Shown piece after piece: positions 315 through 3,131 of a DNA stretch of 64,000 nt. Location of the stretch: positions 1 through 64,000 of the forward strand of contig JAAYCJ010000289.1 in the NCBI GenBank assembly GCA_012729815.1, given 5' to 3'. Position 1 is the stretch's first letter. Every line of letters begins with the position of its first letter. Below the pieces are notes generated by a model. It was not told where the DNA came from, made no database searches, and saw nothing but the letters and a program-made list of their open reading frames with translations. This stretch comes from Phycisphaerae bacterium. GTDB lineage: Bacteria; Planctomycetota; Phycisphaerae; JAAYCJ01. The position numbers and the translations under genes were made by a program.

Positions 315-386
315 GAAGGTCTCCTCTCGGTTTCGAGTGCCGCGTGAGTCTCACTCTAGCGGGCCCGGCGTCCGAATCAACCCTGT

Positions 387-428
387 AAAAATGGAACACG
401 TCCGCTCCGGAGGAGGCAGCGGACGTGT
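387..428 (-). terminator. intrinsic terminator of the B12-controlled gene
   Basis: On the minus strand an 11-bp stem (396-406 with 418-428) is followed by a short U-rich run at 387-391. It lies 42 bases past the stop of the PEP-CTERM gene and before the hydrolase start, so the two are probably separate transcripts. Confidence 0.7.
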
Positions 429-469: not shown

Positions 470-1036
470 TCAAGCGAACCGTCGCCGGACCAGGGCGAGA
501 GCGGCCAGCAGGATCAGGCCGCTGGCCGGTTCCGGAACAGGGTTGGGCGGATAGGAGTCCCAGCCGAAAGCCGGGCTCCAGCCGTCCCAGTCACCGTCGT
601 GAACGATCCGGTCGGCGCATCCGATCACGGGCGCCGTCCAGCCGGTGGCGTCCGTGCGGGTCCAGTAGCTCCACCAGTCCTCGTTGACTTCATCCCAAAT
701 GTAGGTGCCGTCGTGGCCGTCATAGCCGATCTGCCTGACAAAACCGCCGGACTCGGTCAGGACCACCGAGGTGTCCGCCATGAGTGCGTACAGCAGGTCC
801 AGGCCCGTCACCGGGCTCTCTTCATCATCGATGAAATAGACGCCAAAGGCGTATTCGTTGCCCATGCTGTTCGTGTCGTAATCGACAATCACGGCCGCCA
901 GGGAATCCGACGCGGTAGCCGTTCCGATGTACGCGTATCCCGAGATGTCCAGGTCCTCCATGGTGTAGCCCGAGGCGCCAACGCCGAGAGCCGCCACCGC
1001 CAGTATGCACACAAGGCTTTGCACTTTGTCTACCAT
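470..1036 (-). CDS. PEP-CTERM surface protein with DUF4430/transcobalamin-C-like domain, under B12 riboswitch control
   Basis: The start chosen (MVDKVQ) has GGAGG eight bases upstream; a start 12 codons further up would place the ribosome site inside the gene. The 188-residue protein has a signal peptide (about residues 1-22). A single domain follows, with a GLDLLYAL helix, a GGFVRQIGYDG strand, a WWSYW strand and a GWTAP...DGDWDGW end. The tail is VPEPASG, a hydrophobic segment and RRRFA, a textbook PEP-CTERM sorting signal. The order GLxLLxAL, Gly-rich strand, aromatic WWxYW strand and DGDxDGW matches my knowledge of DUF4430, a relative of the C-terminal domain of transcobalamin and intrinsic factor. 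A cobalamin riboswitch and terminator precede the gene. I infer a surface-anchored protein that captures or holds corrinoids when the cell lacks B12. No ligand residues can be proved from sequence alone. Confidence 0.8.
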   Translation of the reverse strand: MVDKVQSLVCILAVAALGVGASGYTMEDLDISGYAYIGTATASDSLAAVIVDYDTNSMGNEYAFGVYFIDDEESPVTGLDLLYALMADTSVVLTESGGFVRQIGYDGHDGTYIWDEVNEDWWSYWTRTDATGWTAPVIGCADRIVHDGDWDGWSPAFGWDSYPPNPVPEPASGLILLAALALVRRRFA

Positions 1037-1162
1037 CTTCATTTCCTCCACGAGAGTTGGGTGTGTGTTCAATCCGCGATTTACTCTCTCTCATCCTTCC
1101 TGATTCCTGTTGCCGAATGCCTGATGTTTCAGATCGCCGGTTCACCTCCTGGTTCTGACCAC

Positions 1163-1194
1163 AAAAAAAGCCCGACCTCGCGGAAGGTCGGGCT
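1163..1194 (-). terminator. intrinsic terminator between the cobalamin riboswitch and its gene
   Basis: A perfect 10-bp stem (1169-1178 with 1185-1194, six-base loop) is followed on the minus strand by seven U residues (1163-1169). It lies about 70 bases downstream of the riboswitch and about 125 bases before the start codon. This is the expected place for an attenuator that stops transcription when cobalamin is bound. Confidence 0.85.
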
Positions 1195-1261
1195 CTGTGC
1201 GCGTTGCGCAAAAGAAATCCCGCAAACTCAGACCGCGAAGTTTGCCACGGATATCGCATCG

Positions 1262-1412
1262 ACTGCCCGGGAGGTCTTCTGGCTTGCGTTTCATCCTACC
1301 GGCCGCACCTTCCCATCCCGAGGTTTCGGGACAGTGGTATCTTTGCGGCTTTCGTCCACGCTCACAGCGGCGGGTCCGCGAGGGATTTGCACCCTGCTTC
1401 CCTGTCCGAGCT
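1262..1412 (-). promoter_or_regulatory. cobalamin (adenosylcobalamin) riboswitch
   Basis: Read on the minus strand, the leader holds the conserved series of the class: AGGGAAGCAGGGTGCAAATC near its 5' end, then GGACCCGC and a CTGTGAGCG segment. These are followed by GCCGCAAAGATACCACTGTC, GGGATGGGAAGGTGCGGC, GTAGGATGAA and finally the B12 box AAGCCAGAAGACCT. Order and spacing match cobalamin riboswitches. With the downstream terminator this predicts repression by B12. Confidence 0.95.
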
Positions 1413-1441
1413 TCGCATTCGTCAAATTGTCAATGGTCATC

Positions 1442-1469
1442 AAGATAGCGGTTTGGCTGGGGGAGTCAA
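1442..1469 (-). promoter_or_regulatory. sigma70-type promoter of the riboswitch transcript
   Basis: The -35 is TTGACT (1469-1464), the spacer is 16 bases and the -10 is TATCTT (1447-1442). The predicted start is about 20 bases before the riboswitch begins. A second TTGACA lies closer but has no matching -10. Confidence 0.6.
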
Positions 1470-1581
1470 GGGGAATCTTCAAAAACCACGCAGCGGCAAA
1501 TTCCGGTGATTTGCCCTCCGCTTGATCGCGCGGCATCATCGAGCTAGAATTGGCCGACAGACGCATCCTGGAGGATTGGCC

Positions 1582-2454
1582 ATGGACACCGTTTTCCGGG
1601 CGTCGTTTTCGCTTCTGATCGTTTTGCTCGTGCCGATAGTCGGCTACGGCCAGAGCACGCAACCGGACCTCGTCAGCGCTCAACTGCTGGGCGATGTGGA
1701 TGCCGTGGCGGCCGGTGCGGAGTTTCGTCTGGCGGTCTTGCTGAAGATCAAGCCCGGCTGGCACATCTACTGGAAGGACTCCGGCGACGCAGGTGTCCCC
1801 ACCAGCGTGCGCGTGACGTTGCCGGAGGGTTTCCGCGCCGAGACTCCGCGCTGGCCGGTGCCCAAGACGTTCACCGAGGCCGGCGGCATCGTTTCATACG
1901 GCTACGAAAATGAGGCGCCGTTGGTCCTGACGGTTCACGCGCCACAGCGGCTGGTGGATGGCGCGACGCGACGTTTCTCGGCCGAGGTGACATGGCTGGC
2001 CTGCGCGGACCGCTGCGTGCCCGGGTCGGCGAAGGTGCACTTGGATCTGCCCGTTTCCGGCGAACCTCAGCCGGCGAACGCCGAACGCGTTGCGGCGTGG
2101 GAAAAGCATCTGCCGGTCCTTGCCGACGCCCCCAACTCACCGGCCAGGGCAATGGTGACCAGCACCCACAGGCAACCGGCGAATCAGAACGTGCAGATGT
2201 CGCTGAACTGGAACCGGCCGCTGCGGAAGGTGGAGTTCTACCCGCCGGTGCACCCAGCCCTCAAGATCGATCGCGACAGTGTCACCATCGAGACGAACAA
2301 GCGGGCAACGCGAATCCGGTTCGAAGCCGGTCTGATCGGCGACGCCAAGACCCTTAAGGAGACACTGGACGCACTGGTGGTCTGGACCGACCGGAAAGGC
2401 CTGCGGCACGGTCTGGAGATACCGGTGGACTTCGATCTGAAACGTTCACCGTAG
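1582..2454 (+). CDS. secreted DsbD N-terminal (alpha) domain protein
   Basis: This 290-residue protein has a signal peptide (residues 1-23, ending GYGQ) and one immunoglobulin-like domain of the DsbD-alpha/DsbC-corrector type. Typical landmarks are KPGWHIYWKDSGDAG at about 57-71, the GYENEAPLVL strand and a cysteine pair C141-x3-C145 in WLACADRCVPG. In DsbD this domain passes electrons to periplasmic thiol proteins. Here the membrane and C-terminal thioredoxin domains of DsbD are absent. The gene stops 11 bases before a redoxin lipoprotein, so the two probably work as a redox pair in the periplasm. The start ATG at 1582 follows CTGGAGGATTGGCC; an in-frame start 20 codons earlier lacks such a site. 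Confidence 0.85.
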   Translation: MDTVFRASFSLLIVLLVPIVGYGQSTQPDLVSAQLLGDVDAVAAGAEFRLAVLLKIKPGWHIYWKDSGDAGVPTSVRVTLPEGFRAETPRWPVPKTFTEAGGIVSYGYENEAPLVLTVHAPQRLVDGATRRFSAEVTWLACADRCVPGSAKVHLDLPVSGEPQPANAERVAAWEKHLPVLADAPNSPARAMVTSTHRQPANQNVQMSLNWNRPLRKVEFYPPVHPALKIDRDSVTIETNKRATRIRFEAGLIGDAKTLKETLDALVVWTDRKGLRHGLEIPVDFDLKRSP

Positions 2455-2465
2455 GAGACAAAACC

Positions 2466-3131
2466 ATGCTCAGACGCACACTGGCGATGGGAGTGATGCT
2501 CGCCGCCGTTCTGGCGATCGGCTGCGAACAGGAGAGGCAGCCGCCCGCCCCGGCGGACGAGCCGCCGCGGGAGGCAGCCGCTCCCGCCGTCGAGCATGCG
2601 ACTGCGACGGCGGCCATCGGTGAACCGGCCCCGGACTTTGTGCTCGAGGACTGGAGCGGTCGGCGGATCGGCCTGACGGGCCATGCCGGCGACATCGTCG
2701 TCCTCGAATGGATCAACCCGGACTGCCCGTTCGTCCAGCGGCACTACAAGGAAGGGACGATGGCCCGACTGGCCGCCAAGTACGCGGATCGCGGCGTGGC
2801 GTGGCTGGCGATCAACAGCACCCACTACATGGGCCGCGGTGGCAACCAGCGTTGGGCCGAGCAGTACGAACTGCCCTACCCGATTCTGGAGGACCGCCGC
2901 GGAATGGTCGGCCGCCTCTACCAGGCGAAGACCACGCCGCATGTGTTCATCATCGATCGCGAGGGCGTCCTGGTCTACGCCGGAGCGATCGACAACGATC
3001 CGGCCGGAGTCAAGCCGCCCGACGAGCGGGTCAACTTCGTCGATCGCGCGTTGACCGAAATGGCCGCAGGCCAGCCGGTGACGATCCCCGAGAGCAAGCC
3101 CTACGGCTGTTCGGTCAAGTACACCGAATGA
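2466..3131 (+). CDS. AhpC/TSA-type redoxin lipoprotein
   Basis: The 221-residue protein opens with a lipoprotein signal ending LAIGC (C20) and a proline-rich linker to about residue 48. A thioredoxin-fold redoxin domain follows: IGEPAPDFVLEDWSG, then INPDCPFVQRHY with the candidate peroxidatic C87, and a TTPHVFIIDREG strand. A second cysteine sits near the end (KPYGCSVKY, C215). Features such as NPDCPFV and the C-terminal YGCSVKY are typical of the PRX-like1 branch of peroxiredoxin-like proteins rather than TlpA. Its place 11 bases after the DsbD-alpha gene, with a shared direction, suggests that the upstream protein reduces it or delivers electrons through it. Confidence 0.85.
   Translation: MLRRTLAMGVMLAAVLAIGCEQERQPPAPADEPPREAAAPAVEHATATAAIGEPAPDFVLEDWSGRRIGLTGHAGDIVVLEWINPDCPFVQRHYKEGTMARLAAKYADRGVAWLAINSTHYMGRGGNQRWAEQYELPYPILEDRRGMVGRLYQAKTTPHVFIIDREGVLVYAGAIDNDPAGVKPPDERVNFVDRALTEMAAGQPVTIPESKPYGCSVKYTE

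Follow-up and report, generated by a model that had tools for sequence, protein, structure and literature searches.

The window (the whole stretch of DNA analysed here, 64,000 nucleotides long) starts at base 1 of a contig of 64,270 bases, part of a draft genome from a Phycisphaerae bacterium. The draft comprises 5.47 Mb in 367 contigs and is 97% complete, so absences from it are provisional. Near the start of the window, the minus strand carries, in order, a promoter, a riboswitch aptamer, a terminator, a single gene, and a second terminator. An earlier note on this DNA had read these as one closed unit, and each part can indeed be placed:

1442..1469, minus: sigma-70-like promoter, TTGACT-16-TATCTT, directly upstream of the aptamer (consensus scan, 9/12)
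1252..1430, minus: cobalamin riboswitch aptamer RF00174, complete, model positions 1-189 (cmscan)
1167..1196, minus: intrinsic terminator, a 13-pair stem followed by a T-run, between aptamer and gene, as the expression platform (pattern scan)
1043..1049, minus: Shine-Dalgarno sequence GGAGGAA (read from the sequence)
470..1036, minus: coding sequence for an exported DUF4430-like protein with a PEP-CTERM-like tail, 188 amino acids (translation)
569..901, minus: DUF4430-like core domain, residues 48-158 of the protein, P0001 (HHalign and conservation)
473..541, minus: PEP-CTERM-like sorting tail, PVPEPAS, a hydrophobic stretch, and RRR (motif visible; tail found family-wide)
385..427, minus: the second intrinsic terminator, which ends the unit, CACGTCCGCT...AGCGGACGTG followed by ATTTTT (sequence; the pattern scan caught part)

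The cobalamin riboswitch that the earlier note had proposed is borne out by the Rfam cobalamin model run with Infernal. RF00174 is matched over its full length with a score of 88.0 bits (E 2.3e-20), against a gathering threshold of 31.5 bits. This is the single match in the 64 kb window and, further, the sole RF00174 match in the 5.47 Mb genome. The leader between aptamer and gene (1155-1251) has a folding energy of -40.4 kcal/mol (z -2.8), and it holds the terminator at 1196-1167 that would serve as the expression platform. Two sites of the promoter type are observed in the region, where shuffles give an expectation of 0.3. Downstream of the gene, the second terminator consists of a 10-bp inverted repeat (427-397) and then ATTTTT. 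Divergent from the unit, on the plus strand at 1522-3131, lie ordinary thiol-redox genes, encoding a protein with a DsbD N-terminal domain and a thioredoxin-like (AhpC/TSA) protein.

The open reading frame as called runs from 470 to 1042, and the ATG at 1042 would give a protein of 190 amino acids. The ATG at 1036 is the better start, because the GGAGG at 1049-1045 lies 8 nt from it and only 2 nt from 1042. The protein so begun opens with a signal peptide, MVDKVQSLVCILAVAALGVGASG, judged by eye. Its C-terminal tail, PVPEPASGLILLAALALVRRRFA, falls below the curated cut-offs of both PEP-CTERM models, scoring 15.4 against 20.7 for Pfam PF07589 and 13.7 against 16 bits for TIGR02595. The motif is nevertheless visible, 62 of the 82 aligned family members match PF07589 (E up to 1), and the genome encodes three exosortases (PF09721, 196-215 bits). 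Thus the export and the sorting tail that the earlier note had reported both stand, and the protein resembles exosortase-sorted surface proteins in its signal peptide, its VPEPAS, hydrophobic and basic tail, and the exosortases that accompany it in the genome.

Between signal peptide and tail, the family core conserves W124, Y126, W127, W135, R145, and the motif DG(x)2DGW. No curated model in the libraries searched, Pfam included, covers the whole protein, whether the query is the protein itself or the 82-row family alignment; matches to Iron_traffic (E 0.32) and SCO2322 (E 0.025) were taken as chance. A sequence search of the PDB with the family profile found no matching solved structure, and in particular no solved B12 binder. 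What it did return was the PEP tail in a lactoperoxidase entry and one chance match. A plasmid search gave no match to the protein.

Distant kinship with a transcobalamin domain

The earlier note had likened the protein to DUF4430 and to the C-terminal domain of transcobalamin. Here, the outcome depends on the method used to look. The Pfam model of DUF4430 (PF14478) matches neither the protein nor any of the other 81 rows of the alignment at E up to 1, and it finds nothing in the source genome; by Pfam gathering score, then, the family lies outside DUF4430. Comparison of profile with profile gives a different answer. DUF4430 proteins from the phylum were reduced to the domain itself, and HHalign then set their profile against that of the family core, aligning the two end to end over 93 columns with a probability of 80.9% (P 1.3e-5). 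Both share the outline V.vDf.dg...w..g.T.ldaL.ai...l....g.fi..I.y....W.Yw....g.....r.L.dGD..gW.

Controls behaved as they should for true homology across the domain. None of 300 column shuffles came near the real score of 32.8, the best reaching 17.9. The probability fell to 0.3% for the reversed alignment and was 50-87% when 50 family members were drawn at random. Unrelated profiles gave 0.9% (DUF4465) and 0.1% (a second PEP-CTERM family, discussed below). Judged by its sequence profile, the exported protein is distantly related to DUF4430, and the likeness survives as remote homology, although not as a relationship that the Pfam model detects.

DUF4430 is the C-terminal domain of the transcobalamins (PMC4350170). 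The family shares with this domain, as it occurs in transcobalamin, haptocorrin and intrinsic factor, an equal order of segments across about 93 columns. It differs in being too remote for the Pfam model, in carrying a PEP-CTERM tail, and in lacking the N-terminal alpha6/alpha6 barrel, for which a domain-model search of the 188-residue protein found no match. The protein is one domain and a tail and, because that barrel is missing, it is not a transcobalamin or an intrinsic factor. A corrinoid bound to a transcobalamin, of course, touches this barrel as well. A further difference lies in regulation: the family stands under B12 riboswitches, whereas the 14 DUF4430 loci scanned, 3 kb each, have none. 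DUF4430 occurs in short bacterial proteins too; in two loci from other planctomycetes (L175 and L179), it directly follows a TonB-dependent receptor, with no riboswitch match within the stretch scanned.

When the DUF4430 profile was itself run against the PDB, it matched one entry weakly, 3u7z (E 0.019, most of the domain), which is named as a putative metal-binding protein. The remaining matches were designed proteins and chance, and the transcobalamins were not reached.

Aptamers and operon partners across the class

One locus on its own could, of course, be a coincidence, the riboswitch being real and its pairing with the gene incidental. A first search, among 60 relatives, gave 12 matches to the family, 10 of which adjoin an independently found riboswitch. 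A 15-row profile was then run on 397 genomes of the class, where the family amounts to about 100 strong matches, and an Rfam scan followed for the 90 best loci. In 76 of these 90, RF00174 lies above its gathering score, upstream, on the same strand, and within about 1.3 kb. By rank of locus, the count is 28 of the best 30, then 20 of 20, 17 of 20, and 11 of the last 20.

Twelve of the 14 loci without RF00174 belong to one GTDB family (f21), and they carry in the equivalent position an aptamer of the AdoCbl type, resembling RF01482 (L149, L151, L154, L158, L160, L165-L167, L171-L174). Eight of the nine scanned score 34-49 bits for RF01482, below its gathering score of 50, so routine annotation would miss them. 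The aptamer cores in the aligned f21 loci have in common GGTGCGAATCC, CGCGTCACCGT and AGTCGGGTCG. A pattern built on this core, run over 1.46 Mb of loci, matches in every one of the 12 f21 loci and nowhere outside them, although, having been derived from eight of the 12, it is independent evidence for the other four only. As for the last two of the 90, one contig (G213) begins 300 bases upstream of the gene, and the other locus (G052) shows an 18-bit trace of RF00174 at the right place.

The two classes combined, a B12-type aptamer precedes the family gene at 88 of these 90 loci, in genomes that mostly hold just one or two such riboswitches. Linkage of this kind, given so few riboswitches per genome, is not chance; it contradicts an incidental pairing, which we regard as very improbable. 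Further, the class of aptamer has changed while control by B12 has been kept. This is hard to explain unless the job of the protein concerns B12. A 5-row profile search of contigs places relatives also in Kiritimatiellae and in one Myxococcota bin, besides Planctomycetota; several family loci belong to Phycisphaerae and to other Planctomycetota.

The family gene seldom stands alone. In 61 of 86 family loci it is followed by a gene for a second exported family (alignment A5; examples on the minus strand at L047:3008-3865 and L131:3470-4456), for which no Pfam or PDB match was found except a dockerin repeat. The two are also found fused, in both orders, with the DUF4430-like part first in L148, L153, L157, L161 and L170 and last in L128, L152, L155 and L156. 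Proteins of the second family mostly carry PEP-CTERM tails, and in the class they stand behind B12 riboswitches whether or not a DUF4430-like gene is present. A search of the source genome for this family gave only short dockerin-like matches. With the second family missing there, the window holds a reduced form of the operon; a genome of the same GTDB family (G002) has a longer one (L057).

The third member is the least expected part of the operon. This is a prepilin-type protein, or pseudopilin, whose sequence shows both an N-methylation and an H-X9-DG motif (for example, L053:4145-4918, L071:9548-10387 and L069:3460-4326, with about 80 other loci). Of the 75 family loci that extend far enough, 60 have it downstream and on the same strand; just three further matches fall elsewhere in these loci. 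The 15 loci without it are those of the 12 f21 genomes and of three Kiritimatiellae. Of 26 riboswitches that have no DUF4430-like gene, 22 are likewise followed by the pseudopilin, and in a 23rd case (L075) it comes after a second riboswitch, a divergent one; in G007 (L071), no other gene stands between it and the riboswitch. B12-riboswitch operons in Phycisphaerae thus almost always include the H-X9-DG pseudopilin.

Some of these operons hold, in the slot that is otherwise DUF4430-like, a member of a family with a demonstrated function. DUF4465 (PF14717, IPR027828) includes BtuJ1/2 of Bacteroides thetaiotaomicron, which bind B12 tightly (PMC12751083). Six further DUF4465 members retain B12 through purification, one of them from Mucisphaera calidilacus (PMC13398666), a planctomycete of the class Phycisphaerae. 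In L070, a DUF4465 protein of PEP-CTERM form (177 bits) occupies the slot. Among 39 tabulated riboswitch loci, 13 have a DUF4430-like gene, seven have DUF4465, and none has both; since the table was partly selected for the DUF4430-like gene, the informative part of this count is the lack of overlap. In these loci a proven B12 binder sits in the same slot and never beside the family, and so the DUF4430-like protein takes the place of a proven binder. The likeness is one of being exported, of riboswitch control and, in Phycisphaerae, of the PEP-CTERM form. It does not extend to homology, as the two sequences are unrelated by HHalign, and DUF4465 is described in the literature as a beta-jellyroll.

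These facts bear on the possibility that the ligand of the protein is cobalt or some other metal, and not a finished corrinoid, so that the riboswitch would govern the scavenging of cobalt for B12 synthesis. In many bacteria, B12 riboswitches do control cobalt transport, and the weak match of the DUF4430 profile to 3u7z fits such a role. The conserved residues of the family are, however, Trp, Tyr, Gly, Asp and Arg, with no conserved pattern of His or Cys, and the slot that the family occupies is otherwise filled by a family that binds B12 itself. On balance, we consider metal binding unlikely.

Other products behind these riboswitches deserve mention in their own right. Two loci (L064:7005-8231, minus, and L066) encode PEP-CTERM proteins of repeat-like or propeller-like appearance, reminiscent of BtuG. 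Classical members of the B12 regulon are present in the class too, with a BtuB-like receptor at L083:7960-10029, minus (TIGR01779, matched end to end with 337 bits, short of the curated cut-off), and an apparent ribonucleotide reductase behind a riboswitch in L084.

A putative role in corrinoid capture

The source genome probably uses corrinoids, since it encodes a corrinoid protein of the methyltransferase type (L220) and several others that carry B12-binding domains. A search of the 97% complete draft found no BtuC-like permease. Its only match to FecCD, a weak one, belongs to a ZnuABC-like cluster, and the two TonB-plug proteins of the genome align over their full length with the TOL_0244 receptor family, not with BtuB.

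The survey and the kinship with DUF4430 lead us to read the product of the window's gene as a putative B12-repressed, exosortase-sorted protein that captures corrinoids at the cell exterior, a reading to which we give a probability of about 0.7. Against it weigh the failure of the Pfam DUF4430 model and of all solved B12 binders to match, the absent barrel, the weak match of the DUF4430 profile to 3u7z, the low PEP-CTERM score of this protein, and the negative search for an uptake partner in the genome. When B12 is scarce, the terminator at 1196-1167 would not form and the gene would be transcribed. When B12 is bound, the aptamer at 1252-1430 would let that terminator form, and transcription would stop. 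This direction of switching is taken from the general behaviour of the riboswitch class. The protein would be exported, an exosortase would recognise its C-terminal tail, and its destination would presumably be the envelope or a surface matrix. There, the DUF4430-like domain, with its conserved Trp and Tyr, may hold the corrinoid outside the cell, to be handed inward later.

Regulation by B12 does not, of course, compel binding of B12. BtuL of B. thetaiotaomicron is controlled by a riboswitch, shows no detected binding of cobalamin, and promotes the release of vesicles (PMC12751083). The protein in the window might likewise be a surface or matrix component under B12 control, for example a scaffold or a BtuL-like vesicle-release factor, with the binding left to another protein. 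The operons of most relatives do offer candidates, in the second PEP-CTERM family and the pseudopilin. The source genome, however, has this gene as its only riboswitch-controlled gene and lacks the second family, which leaves no obvious other binder, and DUF4430 ancestry points toward ligand binding. This alternative, too, seems to us improbable.

Corrinoid capture by the exported protein itself, the preferred reading, has well-studied counterparts. The proteins BtuG, BtuH, BtuJ and BtuK of gut Bacteroides are a known case of riboswitch-controlled capture of B12 at the surface (PMC6143338, PMC8941943, PMC12751083). BtuG, BtuH and BtuK catch B12 before its import, which is the role proposed for the family. 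They differ in being lipoproteins that lie beside BtuB and BtuCDF, whereas the unit in the window relies on exosortase sorting and contains neither btuB nor btuCDF; nor does any solved structure match the family in sequence.

What appears to be new is the PEP-CTERM, DUF4430-like form under the control of a B12 aptamer. No PEP-CTERM family tied to a cobalamin riboswitch is described in the open-licence literature searched, where one reactor-ecology paper is the only text found to mention the two together. The same literature holds no paper that joins DUF1559 with cobalamin, and none that joins Planctomycetes with a cobalamin riboswitch. The earlier note had supposed that no surface-anchored protein of this B12-binding kind had yet been described from planctomycetes. 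As a general statement this fails, since the DUF4465 protein of M. calidilacus retains B12 (PMC13398666); for the PEP-CTERM DUF4430-like form, it holds within the open-licence literature searched.

A wider proposal can be made, more tentatively and at less than even odds. Phycisphaerae may have a B12 uptake route of their own, comprising a riboswitch-controlled and exosortase-sorted binder (DUF4430-like or DUF4465), the second PEP-CTERM family, and the H-X9-DG pseudopilin, and either replacing or feeding BtuB/BtuCDF. The window would then hold a reduced form with the binder only.

For a PEP-CTERM family that the libraries searched leave without annotation, the capture reading provides a function that can be tested. 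For the planctomycete H-X9-DG pseudopilins, the operons indicate a role linked to B12 in at least one subfamily. Together, the observations suggest that a phylum different from that of Bacteroides has seemingly built surface capture of B12 by joining exosortase sorting to a domain of the transcobalamin type. If this is true, the domain with which animals bind B12 would have a bacterial branch in this family.
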